Origin: Alphaproteobacteria bacterium
GTDB taxonomy: Bacteria; Pseudomonadota; Alphaproteobacteria; Reyranellales; Reyranellaceae
NCBI GenBank assembly: GCA_010032545.1
Contig: RGPT01000002.1
Location: 1-53,327, forward strand
Direction of reading: 5' to 3'
Length of the DNA stretch: 53,327 bases
Both the position numbers and the translations under genes were made by a program. Positions 45,940-51,605 of the stretch are shown piece by piece (the stretch's first letter is position 1; the number at the start of each line of letters is the position of its first letter). Below the pieces are notes generated by a model that did not search any database, was not told the DNA's origin, and worked only from the letters and a program-made list of their open reading frames with translations.

Positions 45940-46365
45940 CTAGCGTTGCGCGCGCCGCCAGCGATCGGCCACGGCCAGCGCCATGAAACCGCCGATCAGC
46001 GAGACATGCTCGGTGGCGACCCGGAAGTGAAGCGTCCGCGCGGGCTCCACCATCGCCCAGAAATTGTGGGCGAGCACGATGGCGATCACGAGGAAGCCGC
46101 TCAGGATTCCCGCCCCCAGCCAGAGCCAGCGGTCGAGCAGGATCATGAGCGAGCCCACCAGCAGCGTGACGATGAGCAGCGCGTTCATGAGCGGCGCCGG
46201 CTCGAGCTTCAGTGCACGCAATTCGGCGACGCTCGCCTGGAAGTCGACGAGGTGACCGATGCCGGCACCCCAGAAGACGAACGTCAGCACCAGGCGCGCG
46301 AAAAACCAGCAGACGCCGCTGTCCAGGATGGCCGCAATCGCCCGCGGCATGTCGGTTCTGCCCAT
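45940..46365 (-). CDS. DoxX-family membrane protein
   Basis: 141 residues with four hydrophobic helices (FARLVLTFVFWGAGIGHLVDF, LLIVTLLVGSLMILL, LGAGILSGFLVIAIVLAHNFW, HVSLIGGFMALAVAD). The pattern matches DoxX-like proteins. AGGAGG lies 9 nt before the ATG at 46365 (MGRTDMP), which decides against the ATG at 46374, which directly abuts the AGGAGG. Divergent from the copper-type operon across about 120 bp. DoxX-like proteins (BufD) also accompany some bufferin loci, but this one is 9 kb away. Confidence 0.82.
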   Translation of the reverse strand: MGRTDMPRAIAAILDSGVCWFFARLVLTFVFWGAGIGHLVDFQASVAELRALKLEPAPLMNALLIVTLLVGSLMILLDRWLWLGAGILSGFLVIAIVLAHNFWAMVEPARTLHFRVATEHVSLIGGFMALAVADRWRRAQR

Positions 46366-46483: not shown

Positions 46484-46840
46484 ATGATCCGCAAGCGCTC
46501 CGAGTCGGGCTGGCGCGTGGCCTCTCTGGCCGCGGCGCTGTTTGCGATCACCCTCAATTTCCTCCAGCCCCTCGCCCACGCCGCCCTGATGCGCGATGCA
46601 GGGCCGCAAGCCGCCGCGAAGATGTGGGGCGCCTTCTGCCTGCCCGTCGCCGGCCAGGACGATGCCGAGGGAACCACGCCCGTTGCCGGCAAGTCCCATG
46701 AGTGCTGCCTCGGCCTCGCCCACGCGCCTGTCCTGGCCGAACTCTCCATCACCTTCGTCCGCGTCGAACCTACCCCGGCCGGAAGCAGCGCCGCGGCCTC
46801 GCGCCCGGCGCTTTCGTTCGTCATTCGTGGGGAGATTTTC
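46484..46840 (+). CDS. DUF2946-like small membrane protein, reading in frame into the TonB receptor
   Basis: From the ATG at 46484 there are 119 codons with a hydrophobic N-terminus (RVASLAAALFAITLNFLQPLAHAA) and Cys/His motifs AFCLP and SHECCLGLAHAP, the layout of DUF2946 proteins that often precede copper-linked TonB receptors. There is no stop codon before the receptor's own ATG at 46841, which has its own ribosome site (GGGGAG) and signal peptide. Either the two are fused, or the stop of the first gene was lost. Family assignment is tentative. Confidence 0.5.
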
Positions 46841-49042
46841 ATGCTGTCGATTCGCGCGGCGACGTTTGCCGCTTTCGTGGGCCTTGCCTTGATGCCAGCC
46901 CTTGCCCGGGCGCAGAACGTGCCGCAAACCACGCCACAAGACACGCCAACGGCCACAACACCACCCGTCGCGACACCGCCGATCAGCCTGCCGCCGATCA
47001 CCGTCACCGCCGGCCGCGGCTCCGATCTTGAAAAGCTCGACGTCAGCACCACCGTGATGACGCGCGCGCAGGTGCAGGCGATGCCCGAGACCGGCGTCGA
47101 CCAGATCGTCAACCGAATCCCGGGCGTGTGGACGCAGAACATCCCCTCAGGCCAGCTCCATCCGACCGGCCAGCCCGTCAGCATCCGCGGCTTCGGCACC
47201 AGCACGACCATCAACACACTGGTGATGGTCGACGGCGTGCCGGTGAACGATCCCTACTTCCGCACGATCAACTGGAGCGCCATTCCGAAGAACACCATCG
47301 ACCGGATCGAGGTCATCCGCGGCGGCGGCGCCACCAGCCTGTGGGGCAACATGGCGATGGGCGGCATCATCAACATCGTGACCCGCGAACCCACCAAGAC
47401 CGCAGCGGCGGTCGACATCAGCTACGGCAACTACAACACCGGCGCCGCCGAGGTCGCGGGCAGCCTCGAGGTCAACGACAAGCTCAAGGTCGGGCTCGCC
47501 TACAATCACAACCAGAGCTCGGGCTACAATCTCACCCCGGCGCAATACCAGAATGTCAACCTGGTGCCGACCGCATCCAAGGCCGACAATATCGCCTTCT
47601 CAGTCTTCCTGACGCCGTCCGACAACCTGAAGCTTTTCGCCAAGGCAAACTTCAACCAGACCTACGAAGACGGGCTGGTGTGGCAGTTCGCGCACAACAA
47701 CTGGTCCAGCTTCCGCGGGCAGCTGGGCGGCACCTACGAGTTCGAGGACAAGACATCGATCAACTTCAACGTCTGGGCCGGCGGCGGCGTGTTCGGCACC
47801 ACCAACGTGGCGAGCGGCTCCTACACGCTGAACAACATCAACGCGACCAACCAGTTCGTCAGCCAGATCGAGCAGGCACCAAACACCGACCAGGGCGGCT
47901 CCATCTTCTTCCAGGGCGACGTCGGGCCGGTCAAGGACGTCAAGATCGGCGTCGACATGCGCCGCACGACGATCAACGATAACAACAACCTCTATGCGAG
48001 CGCCACGGCGAAGCCGACCATCTTCATCGCCAACGGCGAGCACCGCAGCCAGGGCGTCTTCGGCCAGGGCACCTACCGCTTCACCGGTGTTCCGCTCGAG
48101 GTCACGGTCGGCCTGCGCGGCGATTTCTACCAGGCGCTGAACGCCAGCGTGCTGACCGCGAACTCCAACACCCTGGTCCCGGTGGCCAACTCGAACTACA
48201 GCAGCTTCGATCCGCGCATCGGCCTGAAGTACTATCTGTTCGACGAATTCAGCATCCGCGCTGCGGCCTACCGCAACTTCTCGGCGCCGGGCATGAACCA
48301 GATGTACCGCAGCTTCGCCGCGGGCACGGCCTACACCGCCATCAACCCGAACCTGCAGCCGATGACGAACATCGGCGAGGAAGTGGGCTTCGACTTCAAG
48401 TGGCGGGAGTTCACCCTGTCGGGAACGGTCTTCAACAACAACCTCGACAACTTCATTGACTTCGTGACGGTGTGCAACACGAACCCGGCCTGCGCCGCGC
48501 CGTTCATCTCCGCCGCCGGCCTCGGCCCCGGCTTCACAACGGTGCGGCAGTACCAGAACACCGGCAGCGCCGTGTTCCAGGGCCTCGAGATCATCGGCGG
48601 ATGGCAGGCGACGCCGGAGCTTCGTTTCGGTGCCAGCTTCACCAACACCATCGCCTACATGACGACCTCCAACTATCCGGCGCTGATCCGCACCGGGGTC
48701 CAGCTCGGCCAGGTCCCGGTCACGATGTTCAACGCCAATGTCGAATGGCGACCGATCCCCGAGCTGGTGCTGAGCGCCAACCTGAAGTCTTTCCCGAGCT
48801 ACTGGAACGACACCGGCCATACCCAGCTCAACCAGGCCGCCACGCTGCTCGACGTCGGGGCCTCCTATTCGCCCGCCAAGTACGTCGACATCTATGCCAG
48901 CATCCAGAACCTCACCAACGTCCAGTACCTGGCGGCGGGCTATACGACGACCACGTTCGAGGGTCCGACGGTCAATGCCTCGGCGATCCCCGCACTGGGC
49001 ATGCCGTTTACCGCCATCGCCGGCCTTCGGATGCGATTCTGA
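46841..49042 (+). CDS. TonB-dependent outer-membrane receptor, probable copper receptor
   Basis: 733 residues. Signal peptide to about residue 25 (FVGLALMPALARAQ), a Thr/Pro-rich spacer, TonB box-like ITVTAGR, plug domain (DQIVNRIPGVWTQN, VSIRGFGTS, VDGVPVNDPYF, IEVIRGGGATSLWGN) and a long beta-barrel ending in LRMRF with terminal Phe. GGGGAG lies about 8 nt before the ATG at 46841. The downstream propeller, thioredoxin and PCu(A)C genes suggest copper or a copper complex as cargo; a direct reading of substrate from sequence is not possible. Confidence 0.9.
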   Translation: MLSIRAATFAAFVGLALMPALARAQNVPQTTPQDTPTATTPPVATPPISLPPITVTAGRGSDLEKLDVSTTVMTRAQVQAMPETGVDQIVNRIPGVWTQNIPSGQLHPTGQPVSIRGFGTSTTINTLVMVDGVPVNDPYFRTINWSAIPKNTIDRIEVIRGGGATSLWGNMAMGGIINIVTREPTKTAAAVDISYGNYNTGAAEVAGSLEVNDKLKVGLAYNHNQSSGYNLTPAQYQNVNLVPTASKADNIAFSVFLTPSDNLKLFAKANFNQTYEDGLVWQFAHNNWSSFRGQLGGTYEFEDKTSINFNVWAGGGVFGTTNVASGSYTLNNINATNQFVSQIEQAPNTDQGGSIFFQGDVGPVKDVKIGVDMRRTTINDNNNLYASATAKPTIFIANGEHRSQGVFGQGTYRFTGVPLEVTVGLRGDFYQALNASVLTANSNTLVPVANSNYSSFDPRIGLKYYLFDEFSIRAAAYRNFSAPGMNQMYRSFAAGTAYTAINPNLQPMTNIGEEVGFDFKWREFTLSGTVFNNNLDNFIDFVTVCNTNPACAAPFISAAGLGPGFTTVRQYQNTGSAVFQGLEIIGGWQATPELRFGASFTNTIAYMTTSNYPALIRTGVQLGQVPVTMFNANVEWRPIPELVLSANLKSFPSYWNDTGHTQLNQAATLLDVGASYSPAKYVDIYASIQNLTNVQYLAAGYTTTTFEGPTVNASAIPALGMPFTAIAGLRMRF

Positions 49043-49063
49043 AAGGTGTAGAAAGGAAAAGCC

Positions 49064-50245
49064 ATGCGCCGCCTCCTTCTCTGTCTCGCCCTTCTGCTGC
49101 CCGCCGGCATCGCTGCGGCACAACACAACCACGCCGGCCGTGGAACGCCGGAGGCTTTCACCGCCACACCGGCCTTCGGTCCCGATGGCACGCTGTGGCT
49201 GGTGCGGACCGAGGGAAGCCGGGTCGTGGTCGTGCGTTCGTCCGACCTCGGCCGGACGTTTACCGCGCCCGTCCCAGTGACGCCGGAGCCGCTGAACCTC
49301 GACTGGGGGCCCGACGCGCGGGCCCGCATCGCCGTCGACTCCAGGGGCGTGGCGATCGTCACTTTCGCCATCTTCCAGGACAAGAATTTCAACGGCCGCG
49401 CATTCCATGCGCGCTCGACCGACAACGGCGCCTCGTTCACGCAACCGCGGCCGCTCACTGCCGACACGACCAGCCAGCGCTTCGAGACGGTGGCGATCGA
49501 TCCCGCCGGCCGTGTGTTCACCGCCTGGCTCGACAAGCGCAACGGCGCCGCCGCCCGCAAGGCCGGCAAGCCTTATCCCGGTGCGGCGCTCGCCTACGCC
49601 TGGTCCGACGACGAGGGCGCGCGCTTCTCCGACACGGAGGTCGCGCTCGACAACACCTGCGAATGCTGCCGCCTCGGCGTCGCCTTCGCCGGCCCCGGCC
49701 GGCCGGCCGTGATCTTCCGCAACATCTTCCCGGGCTCGGTGCGCGATCATGCCGTCGTCACCTTTCGCGATCCCGCAACGCCGGGTCCGCTCACCCGCGT
49801 CAGCACGGACAACTGGAAGATCGATGCCTGTCCGCACCACGGCCCCAGCCTCGCGATCGCACCGGACGGCAGCCAGCATGCCGCCTGGTTCACCGACGGC
49901 TCGGCTCGAAAGGGCCTGTTCTATGCCCGCGCGGAGTCGGACGGCGCCGCCTTCGGCCCGCCGCGCCCGCTCGGCACGCCCGACCGCCAGCCGGCGCGGC
50001 CCTATCTCCTGTCGGCGGGACCGGCGCTCCATCTCGTGTGGAAGGAATTCGACGGCGACAAGGTGGCGGTACGCTGGCAGGTCTCGACCGACAGCGGCCG
50101 CAGCTGGAGTCCCGCAACGACCGTCGCCGACACCGGCGATGCCTCGGATCATCCCTTGCTGGTCGCCCGCGACGATCGCGTCTATCTCTCCTGGCTGACG
50201 AAGAACGAAGGTTACCGTCTGATCGCCCTGGGTGGCGCATCGTGA
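49064..50245 (+). CDS. Exported sialidase-like beta-propeller with CxCC and CPHH motifs
   Basis: 393 residues, signal peptide to about 19 (LALLLPAGIAAAQ), then HNHAG. At least four Asp-box repeats (SxDxGxxF/W) are visible: SSDLGRTF, STDNGASF, SDDEGARF and STDSGRSW, indicating a six-bladed propeller of sialidase type. The catalytic Arg triad and Tyr/Glu of true sialidases are not evident. Unusual cysteines: TCECC (C199, C201, C202) and CPHH (C256, H258, H259), which could bind metal. Between a TonB receptor and TlpA/PCu(A)C genes, a copper role is more likely than sugar hydrolysis. Confidence 0.8.
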   Translation: MRRLLLCLALLLPAGIAAAQHNHAGRGTPEAFTATPAFGPDGTLWLVRTEGSRVVVVRSSDLGRTFTAPVPVTPEPLNLDWGPDARARIAVDSRGVAIVTFAIFQDKNFNGRAFHARSTDNGASFTQPRPLTADTTSQRFETVAIDPAGRVFTAWLDKRNGAAARKAGKPYPGAALAYAWSDDEGARFSDTEVALDNTCECCRLGVAFAGPGRPAVIFRNIFPGSVRDHAVVTFRDPATPGPLTRVSTDNWKIDACPHHGPSLAIAPDGSQHAAWFTDGSARKGLFYARAESDGAAFGPPRPLGTPDRQPARPYLLSAGPALHLVWKEFDGDKVAVRWQVSTDSGRSWSPATTVADTGDASDHPLLVARDDRVYLSWLTKNEGYRLIALGGAS

Positions 50246-50754
50246 GGCGGCGCGCGCTCCTCGCCACGGCCTTCGGTGGCCTCGGCCTCGTGGCCGCCGT
50301 GGCCGCCGCGCAGGTCGCGACGGTGGATGAGCCGCTGTCCTTTTCGCGCGGCAGCTGGGCCAAACTGCGCGCGGCGCACGCGGGCCTGCCGACCGTTGTC
50401 CATCTCTGGGGCCTGACCTGCGGCCCGTGCCTTGTAGAACTGCCACATTGGGGCGAACTGGCAAAGGCGCGGCCCGACCTTCGCCTGGTGCTGATCGCGG
50501 CCGATCCGCTGCCGCAGGAGCCGGCGCGCGTGTCGGCAACGCTGGCCAAGTCCGGCCTCGGCAATGCCGAGAGCTGGAGTTTCACCGACCGCTTCTACGA
50601 AAAGCTGCGCCACGAGATCGATCCTGCCTGGGCGGGCGAGTTGCCGCGCACCGTCCTGATCGCCACCGACGGCACCGTCAGCGTCCTGCCCGGTGTCGCC
50701 GACCTTGCCCGGGTGCGGGCGTGGCTCGATGCCCAGGCCAAACCTCGCCTTTAA
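50242..50754 (+). CDS. TlpA-like periplasmic thioredoxin
   Basis: 170 residues. The N-terminal hydrophobic stretch (LLATAFGGLGLVAAVAAAQ) exports or anchors it. The redox motif C60-G-P-C63 follows HLWGLT, and LPRTVLIATDG provides the cis-Pro loop (LPRT). It probably reduces disulfides in a periplasmic copper protein, as TlpA does for Sco and CoxB. The GTG at 50242 overlaps the propeller stop (GTGA), so it is translationally coupled to it. Confidence 0.87.
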   Translation: MRRRALLATAFGGLGLVAAVAAAQVATVDEPLSFSRGSWAKLRAAHAGLPTVVHLWGLTCGPCLVELPHWGELAKARPDLRLVLIAADPLPQEPARVSATLAKSGLGNAESWSFTDRFYEKLRHEIDPAWAGELPRTVLIATDGTVSVLPGVADLARVRAWLDAQAKPRL

Positions 50755-50766
50755 GGAGTAGTCCTC

Positions 50767-51243
50767 ATGGTCAGCCGCCGCCTCTCCCTCGTCTTCCTCG
50801 CCGCCGCTCTCGCGGTTTCCGACTCCGCGCCAGGCCTCGCCCAGGACTACAAGCTGGGCACGCTCGAAATCAGCCAGCCCTGGACGCGGGCCACGCCGGC
50901 CACGGCGCAATCGGCCGGTGGCTTTCTCACCGTCACCAACAAGGGCACCACGCCCGACCGGCTGATCGCTGCGCAGAGCTCTGTCTCGGCCAAGGTCGAG
51001 GTCCACGAGATGCGGATGGACGGCAACGTGATGAAGATGCGCGAACTCGAGAAAGGCCTCGAGATCGCGCCGGGCGCCACGGTGATGCTGAAGCCGGGCA
51101 GCTATCACATCATGTTCATGGGGCTGAAGGCGCCGATCGCCAAGGACTCGATGGTCCCGGTGACGCTGGTGTTCGAGAAGGCCGGCAGCATCGAGGTCGA
51201 GCTCAAGGCCGCAGCGATCGGCGCCGCCGCCGCCACGCATTGA
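50767..51243 (+). CDS. Copper chaperone PCu(A)C
   Basis: 158 residues with signal peptide to about 26. Cu(I) ligands H80, M91, H114 and M116 (VHEMRMDG, VMKM, YHIMFMG) follow the H-x10-M-x21/22-HxM pattern of PCu(A)C/PmoF2-type chaperones, which deliver Cu to the CuA site of cytochrome oxidase or buffer periplasmic copper. PWTRATPATAQSAGGFLTVTN is the typical opening, here cited as PWTRATP. Ends in a free His tail (AAAATH). 12 bp after the thioredoxin gene. Confidence 0.93.
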   Translation: MVSRRLSLVFLAAALAVSDSAPGLAQDYKLGTLEISQPWTRATPATAQSAGGFLTVTNKGTTPDRLIAAQSSVSAKVEVHEMRMDGNVMKMRELEKGLEIAPGATVMLKPGSYHIMFMGLKAPIAKDSMVPVTLVFEKAGSIEVELKAAAIGAAAATH

Positions 51244-51289
51244 GCTGCTCGGGAGCCCTTCGCTTGACGCCGGCCAGACGACTCTCCAA

Positions 51290-51482
51290 TAGTGCCATCA
51301 GTGGTTCCCGCAAGGGATCAAAAGGGAACGCGGTGCGCGTCTTCGGGCGCCATGCCGCGGCTGCCCCCGCAACTGTAAGCGGCGAGCGTCCGACCGAACA
51401 TGCCACTGAGGGCCGCAAGGTCGTTGGGAAGGTGGTCAACGCAGCGACCCGCGAGCCAGGAGACCTGCCACGAGCCTTGGTC
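51290..51482 (+). ncRNA. Cobalamin riboswitch
   Basis: Conserved segments appear in order: AAAAGGGAACGCGGTG near 51319-51334, GCCGCGGCTGCCCCCGCAAC then TGTAAGCGGCGAGC in the core, GCCACTG near 51400, GGGAAGG, and the B12 box (GCGAGCCAGGAGACCTGCC at about 51451-51469). This is the AdoCbl/MeCbl aptamer that represses downstream genes when cobalamin is plentiful. A GCCTTC-GCGA-GAAGGC hairpin at 51534-51549, 56 nt before the next ATG, may be part of the expression platform. Exact ends are approximate. Confidence 0.93.
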
Positions 51483-51605
51483 GCGCGCGAACGCATTGGG
51501 CGGGGTGTCCTTGTGCGGCACTTGACCGGCGGTGCCTTCGCGAGAAGGCGTGCGGCCGGGCAGCGCATTTCGCAGCGGCGGAGTCATTGCGTCGCAGGCC
51601 GTCCC

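Follow-up and report, generated by a model that had tools for sequence, protein, structure and literature searches.

The window analysed here, a 53,327-nt stretch of contig RGPT01000002.1 (assembly GCA_010032545.1) from an alphaproteobacterium of the family Reyranellaceae whose close relatives bear the name Reyranella, carries on its + strand, between positions 46484 and 51243, an operon for a TonB-dependent outer-membrane receptor (TBDT), a periplasmic propeller protein, a TlpA-like thioredoxin and a PCu(A)C copper chaperone, headed by a damaged upstream open reading frame (uORF) of the DUF2946/CruR family. A role of this propeller operon in copper is strongly supported. The preliminary description of this DNA had already proposed a copper operon, as is now borne out by the CruR-type uORF at its head, the PCuAC gene inside it and the recurrence of the same set in other genera. 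With confidence that is about evenly balanced, we read it from its sequence as a CruR-type copper-acquisition operon, in which a periplasmic copper-handling propeller would be kept reduced by its own thioredoxin and would feed the PCuAC/oxidase route. Within this reading, metal binding by the propeller, its reduction by the thioredoxin and transfer to PCuAC are steps that we infer.

A propeller and its thioredoxin recur together in CruR-headed operons

To describe the company that the propeller keeps, the neighbourhood of 92 loci was scored with profiles grown from the window's own proteins. A TlpA-like thioredoxin lies near the propeller in 91/92 loci, which bears out the earlier claim of a dedicated thioredoxin, and a TBDT, PCuAC and a DUF2946 gene (by profile) are found in 89, 76 and 75 of the 92, respectively. 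Among the 84 loci with more than 3.5 kb of upstream sequence, 78 have a same-strand uORF that ends in R[AGS]PP and bears a Cys motif 30-62 residues before that end, versus 1/84 on the opposite strand; such RxPP-ending uORFs were confirmed as DUF2946 by Pfam in several lineages. Eighty of the 92 loci were retrieved by a search for a CECCR-type pattern and come mostly from Reyranella, Bradyrhizobium and near relatives. The remaining 12 come from a profile search, and hold the thioredoxin in 11 cases and a uORF, by motif or Pfam, in six. The order DUF2946, TBDT, propeller, thioredoxin, PCuAC is the same in L130, from another class of the phylum.

The genes of these operons do not vary in step. 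The L069 receptor matches that of the window with 938 blastp bits, and its propeller is 68% identical. In L070, propeller and thioredoxin are still 62% and 55% identical to those of the window, respectively, and the TBDT scores only 41 blastp bits. Bradyrhizobium loci resemble L070 in that propeller and thioredoxin change together while the TBDT is exchanged. From these comparisons, the propeller-thioredoxin pair is best described as the constant core and the TBDT as the exchangeable part, a pattern that fits a protein acting on the metal better than one acting on a receptor-specific chelate.

Several loci showed more elaborate arrangements. Four Bradyrhizobium loci (L101, L106, L113 and L119) carry tandem CruR-headed units, DUF2946-TBDT-propeller-thioredoxin followed by DUF2946-TBDT-PCuAC, and L088 shows the start of a second unit of the DUF2946-TBDT-PCuAC type before its contig ends. 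In L132 (3905-9164), a RAPP-ending uORF is followed by ExbB, ExbD-like and TonB-like ORFs, the propeller and the thioredoxin, with the TBDT on the other strand; ExbB alone is Pfam-confirmed in this copper unit, which apparently has its own TonB energiser. L139 (3592-4974) holds two RAPP-ending uORFs, which precede PCuAC and the TBDT, respectively.

A predicted seven-bladed fold that is not a sialidase

The propeller (393 aa, 49064-50245, + strand) matched no Pfam or NCBIfam family model above its cut-off. AlphaFold2 modelling with 45 homologues yielded a pLDDT of 84.7 and a pTM of 0.85, and the model has seven blades, whose A strands start at residues 34, 88, 139, 205, 262, 311 and 365. Its best solved matches, also ranked by Foldseek, were CylK, Photorhabdus PLL lectins, GH145-type hydrolases, ulvan and rhamnose-glucuronate lyases and YncE (Z 24-31), with virginiamycin B lyase likewise among the closest solved folds; most of these we take to be seven-bladed.

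Relatives of the protein are annotated as "sialidase family protein", and it does share Asp-box (BNR) repeats, the propeller fold and a weak profile match with sialidases and the BNR_2 family (PF13088). Sialidases, however, are six-bladed and rely on FRIP/Arg-triad chemistry, whereas the window protein has seven predicted blades and Cys loops. Its BNR_2 score of 28.4 bits falls below the 31.4 cut-off, and the translation holds no RIP and hence no FRIP motif. The statement that sialidase chemistry has been lost is thus upheld; together with the copper context, these features led us to reject a sialidase identity, to which we assign virtually no chance.

The fold also raises the possibility of an enzyme that degrades or strips an imported copper-binding small molecule, with the same face used as in similar lyases and glycosidases. 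CylK, GH145-type hydrolases, ulvan lyase and virginiamycin B lyase are indeed among the closest solved folds, and the conserved R86, R219, R227 and D157 could bind an anion. Yet the propeller face stays unchanged where the TBDT, on which the choice of chelate depends, has been exchanged, and invariant thiols are unusual in such enzymes, so that we regard this activity as very unlikely.

Four invariant cysteines in two adjacent loops

Conserved residues of the propeller cluster in the inter-blade D-to-A loops of the model (80-86, 136-140, 199-203, 256-261, 308-313 and 359-364), which connect the outer strand of each blade with the following blade's inner strand and lie on one face, around the channel. 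The TCECC and CPHH motifs reported in the preliminary description are read directly from the translation, as residues 198-202 and 256-259. The codons for C199-E200-C201-C202 (49658-49669, + strand) fall in the loop from blade 3 to 4, and those for C256-P257-H258-H259 (49829-49840, + strand) in the loop from blade 4 to 5. When inner strands are aligned, N-T-C-E-C-C-R of the first loop stands over D-A-C-P-H-H-G of the second, so that C199 corresponds to C256, and C201 and C202 to H258 and H259, at the same position before strand A of adjacent blades. Given these equivalent positions in neighbouring blades and the pseudo-sevenfold symmetry, the Cys/His groups should, according to the model, come within bridging range. 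The structure prediction that had been put forward as a check on their convergence thus has these groups in matching loops of neighbouring blades, contrary to a placement far apart.

Conservation was assessed in 17 propellers from a whole-domain profile search, down to 31% identity, and in 45 closer rows, amounting to 58 distinct proteins. C199, C201, C202, R203, R219, R227, W251, C256, P257, G260 and H272 are invariant in the 17, and the Cys are so in all aligned members. Moreover, the folded part has exactly four Cys in 58/58 distinct propellers, always C199, C201, C202 and C256. Judged from these alignments, the CxCC and CP motifs are more than chance. H258 and H259 are each kept in 15/17, with E or Q instead in some members. 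Because H258 and H259 vary more than the Cys, the likely core of a site would be the four Cys rather than Cys plus His. The earlier view of clustered Cys/His is accordingly retained for the CxCC and CPHH loops, predicted on one face, and weakened for the His, which are less conserved and lost in remote relatives. A further His- and Met-rich segment is the N-terminal tail, with 16-17% His+Met versus 3% in the propeller body.

These cysteines might instead form structural or regulatory disulfides, with a thioredoxin that serves oxidase assembly (CoxB, Sco) and is merely co-regulated with the propeller. PCuAC is known to serve oxidase assembly, and a title cited in PMC13038864 has TlpA reducing both CoxB and the copper chaperone ScoI ahead of their metallation. 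Nevertheless, the thioredoxin stays beside the propeller even without PCuAC or TBDT, a CxCC triplet plus one Cys would be odd for plain disulfides, and even very remote members, which occur in copper contexts, retain the Cys. We thus consider this explanation distinctly unlikely.

Remote relatives adjoin copper genes

Remote members, with 21-25% identity, reside on plasmids of Methylomagnum, Roseobacter, Tritonibacter and Adhaeribacter (Bacteroidota), all named "sialidase family protein". They keep CxCC, W251, C256-P257 and G260, but not both His; the CxCC/CPxxG signature was checked in four of the eight plasmid places inspected (L146, L147, L148 and L150). In all eight of these, out of 12 places, copper genes lie within ~5 kb of the propeller, and encode CopC, CopD, all or one domain of a multicopper oxidase, copper-binding proteins or a copper P-type ATPase. 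On the plasmids L146-L153 (Roseobacter-group, Methylomagnum, Adhaeribacter), several remote propellers also adjoin mercury resistance genes.

Chromosomal relatives L170, L175 and L176 keep the Cys signature as well. A DUF2946 gene and a TBDT adjoin L170 (context L180), and a TBDT and a PepSY_TM gene accompany L176 (context L179). Weak profile matches L171-L174 and L177 (E 1e-9 to 1e-15) were discarded as ordinary BNR proteins without the CxCC-CPxxG signature.

Receptor, thioredoxin and chaperone in the window

As first described, the receptor, propeller, thioredoxin and PCuAC genes are co-directional, and both coordinates and domain matches agree with this layout: 21 nt separate TBDT and propeller, propeller and thioredoxin overlap by a 4-nt GTGA, and 12 nt lie between thioredoxin and PCuAC. 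The TBDT (733 aa, 46841-49042, + strand) matches the Plug (PF07715, 77.7 bits) and barrel (PF00593, 147.3 bits) families. CirA and BtuB are its best solved relatives by sequence, and a search of PDB sequences also returned PirA, heme and ferric-citrate receptors. A PepSY_TM gene follows crtA in >75% of crtA loci, and the assembly of the window genome contained no PepSY_TM match. Nor was PepSY_TM found near any main-family propeller checked; it was absent from 5/16 genomes, that of the window included.

The thioredoxin (50242-50754, + strand) has a periplasmic TlpA/ResA/CcmG-like fold with active site C60-G-P-C63. Its AlphaFold2 model (pLDDT 86.3) matches DsbF, ResA and CcmG structures at Z 13-14, both Cys of CxxC are invariant in 20 aligned sequences, and a conserved Pro stands where the cis-Pro is expected. 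With 23.1 bits against the NCBIfam TlpA equivalog cut-off of 230, it is to be classed by sequence as TlpA-like, not as rhizobial TlpA itself. The PCu(A)C chaperone (50767-51243, + strand) is identified by Pfam (PF04314, 133.7 bits) and by the ligand motif H80-x10-M-x22-HxM, in line with the H-x10-M-x21/22-H-x-M ligands of the family.

Features on either side belong elsewhere. A DoxX-family gene (45940-46362, - strand) diverges from the copper operon, with its start ~120 nt from the uORF. Directly behind the operon, a cobalamin riboswitch (109 bits, 51285-51486) precedes another receptor-like ORF, and the two are probably a separate, B12-controlled unit. The carrier of the operon, Reyranella, is a soil bacterium.

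A CruR-type leader without arrest motif and stop

To the DUF2946 family belongs CruR, a nascent peptide that arrests at its C-terminal RAPP when copper is scarce, thereby blocking Rho termination so that downstream copper-uptake genes are transcribed (PMC9426467). In the window, the reading frame at 46484-46840 (+ strand) matches DUF2946 (PF11162) with 24.4 bits against a cut-off of 23.7 and is the sole DUF2946 of the window genome. It retains a HECC motif but lacks both the RAPP arrest motif and its own stop. Nucleotide alignment with the four closest relatives (L050, L051, L052 and L143), none of which has the deletion, placed the junction of a clean 97-nt deletion at 46781/46782 (+ strand); the stretch lost reads ...SPVGIRDGPxQPRAPPSxV-stop. 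Because this deletion took out the stop, uORF and TBDT are fused in frame and read as one ORF of 927 aa from 46259. We therefore rejected 46484-49042 as a single TBDT: position 46484, initially taken as the receptor start, is that of a fifth gene, the DUF2946/CruR uORF, and the receptor has its ATG at 46841, preceded by an RBS-like GGGGAG of its own and followed by a signal-peptide-like start.

The uORF is intact in 20/20 other Reyranella-type loci, with RAPP or RGPP a few codons before TGA and this stop 61-70 nt ahead of the TBDT match; for L064, one of the 20, the intact status comes from the scan for RxPP-ending ORFs, in which it was not among the loci without such an ORF. Reyranella uORFs carry HECC or HDCC, not the CxxC of the Bordetella CruR, whose copper sensor lies ~45 residues before RAPP. 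RxPP follows the last Cys at a distance of 47-48 residues in the Reyranella relatives measured, and of 45-46 in other lineages with CxxC.

Under the published CruR model, loss of RAPP alone would leave the operon off. With the stop lost too, ribosomes may run on into the TBDT, and the operon may instead be left on. A uORF without arrest motif and stop should no longer subject the window operon to copper control in the CruR way. The deletion was seen in one assembly of 567 contigs, in which an assembly error is possible.

A proposed route for copper through the periplasm

These features can be joined into a putative route. The TBDT would bring copper, probably chelated, into the periplasm, as gene context and the CrtA and TccA receptors suggest. 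There, C199, C201, C202 and C256, contributed by two adjacent-blade loops, would build a site rich in thiols where the central channel opens, a proposal founded on the conservation of these residues and on their shared face in the model; H258/H259 would help in most members, and the His/Met-rich N-terminal tail may assist. Owing to the near-obligate pairing, the TlpA-like thioredoxin is the candidate dedicated reductant, keeping the propeller Cys able to take Cu(I). Cu(I) would then pass to PCuAC and the respiratory oxidases, the weakest step of the scheme. Overall, the propeller-thioredoxin pair would occupy the place of the PepSY_TM protein CrpH in Bordetella.

Several observations weigh against this reading. 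A thioredoxin beside four Cys would also be expected for a disulfide-carrying protein. PCuAC is not near 16/92 propellers, some of which are on short contigs. The loci are not independent, most being Reyranella or Bradyrhizobium; 80 of them were found by the CECCR-type pattern. The least confidently modelled part of the core is the CPHH loop (block pLDDT 66). Remote members have lost the His, and their context is one of copper resistance, not of uptake.

The closest alternative, distinct from a copper-handling propeller only in turnover, is a thiol-driven cupric reductase: electrons from the inner membrane would flow through the thioredoxin to CxCC/C256, the imported Cu(II)-chelate would be reduced and Cu(I) released, making the propeller a soluble counterpart of CrpH. 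Its operon slot is the same as that of CrpH, a proposed copper reductase (PMC13038864), CrtA imports chelated Cu(II), and PepSY_TM is absent from propeller operons and from some whole genomes. A thioredoxin present in 91/92 loci fits this activity too, as does receptor swapping, which suits action on the metal and not on one chelate. However, the propeller has no cofactor-binding signature, and thiols reduce Cu(II) non-specifically. We hold turnover of this kind to be possible but unlikely.

More broadly, and with slightly less than even confidence in the whole, the models and alignments may point to a novel class of copper proteins in the periplasm. In this view, a propeller of seven blades, with a four-Cys site made of two adjacent-blade loops and a thioredoxin of its own, would serve as copper carrier or cupric reductase downstream of many different outer-membrane receptors. 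The class would extend across Pseudomonadota, with distant members in Bacteroidota, and be masked by the annotation "sialidase family protein".

Relation to known copper systems

The nearest described system is cruR-crtA-crpH of Bordetella pertussis (PMC9426467, PMC12914433, PMC13038864). It shares with the Reyranella operon a DUF2946 uORF with a RAPP end, a TBDT and a copper protein on the periplasmic side, and its Cys-to-RAPP spacing of 45 residues is similar to the 47-48 of Reyranella relatives. It differs in having the PepSY_TM protein CrpH, proposed as a copper reductase (PMC13038864) and the candidate copper handler described for CruR-headed operons, where the Reyranella operon has propeller and thioredoxin instead, plus PCuAC; and the window uORF, unlike Bordetella cruR, has neither RAPP nor stop. 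In the portion of its account drawn on here, TccA of Caulobacter is a TBDT that supplies copper to the aa3 oxidase, much as proposed for the receptor in the window; the likeness is one of description, and that portion mentions no propeller (PMC12617631).

In several Bradyrhizobium, a cruR-TBDT-PCuAC unit directly follows cruR-TBDT-propeller-TlpA. The pcuABCDE operon of this genus, attributed to Serventi et al. 2012, is reportedly a copper-starvation operon with a TBDT (PcuB) and PCuAC (PcuC); TBDT and PCuAC are thus common to it and the Reyranella operon, and the succession of two units makes the propeller unit appear distinct from it. According to PMC9426467, a cruR homologue stands at the head of pcuABCDE.

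Propellers joined to thioredoxins or to copper are known from other proteins, which are analogies to the window propeller and not relatives. In nitrous oxide reductase (NosZ), the CuZ cluster is held by His. This protein is a seven-bladed periplasmic propeller holding copper (PMC6530538). In NHLRC2 and SOQ1, a TlpA-like thioredoxin domain and a propeller face each other within a single chain, and the cleft contains a conserved Cys motif; unlike in the window pair, the propeller is a six-bladed NHL propeller, the Cys motif is on the thioredoxin and there is no copper context (PMC6107167).

Among the papers covered by full-text searches, none dealt with this propeller together with PCuAC, TlpA, TonB or copper. 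The regulatory head and receptor are of the known CruR-CrtA operon kind, and the propeller-thioredoxin core is a variant for which no description was found in the papers searched, the propeller being probably an unstudied copper-handling protein. The damaged uORF of the window represents a natural loss-of-switch case for the recently described copper-sensing arrest peptide. For the handling of copper between the outer-membrane receptor and the assembly of oxidases, which is poorly understood, the conserved propeller-thioredoxin pair in the CrpH slot offers a concrete and testable alternative to CrpH; this pair also suggests that "sialidase family" annotations are wrong in a large number of cases.

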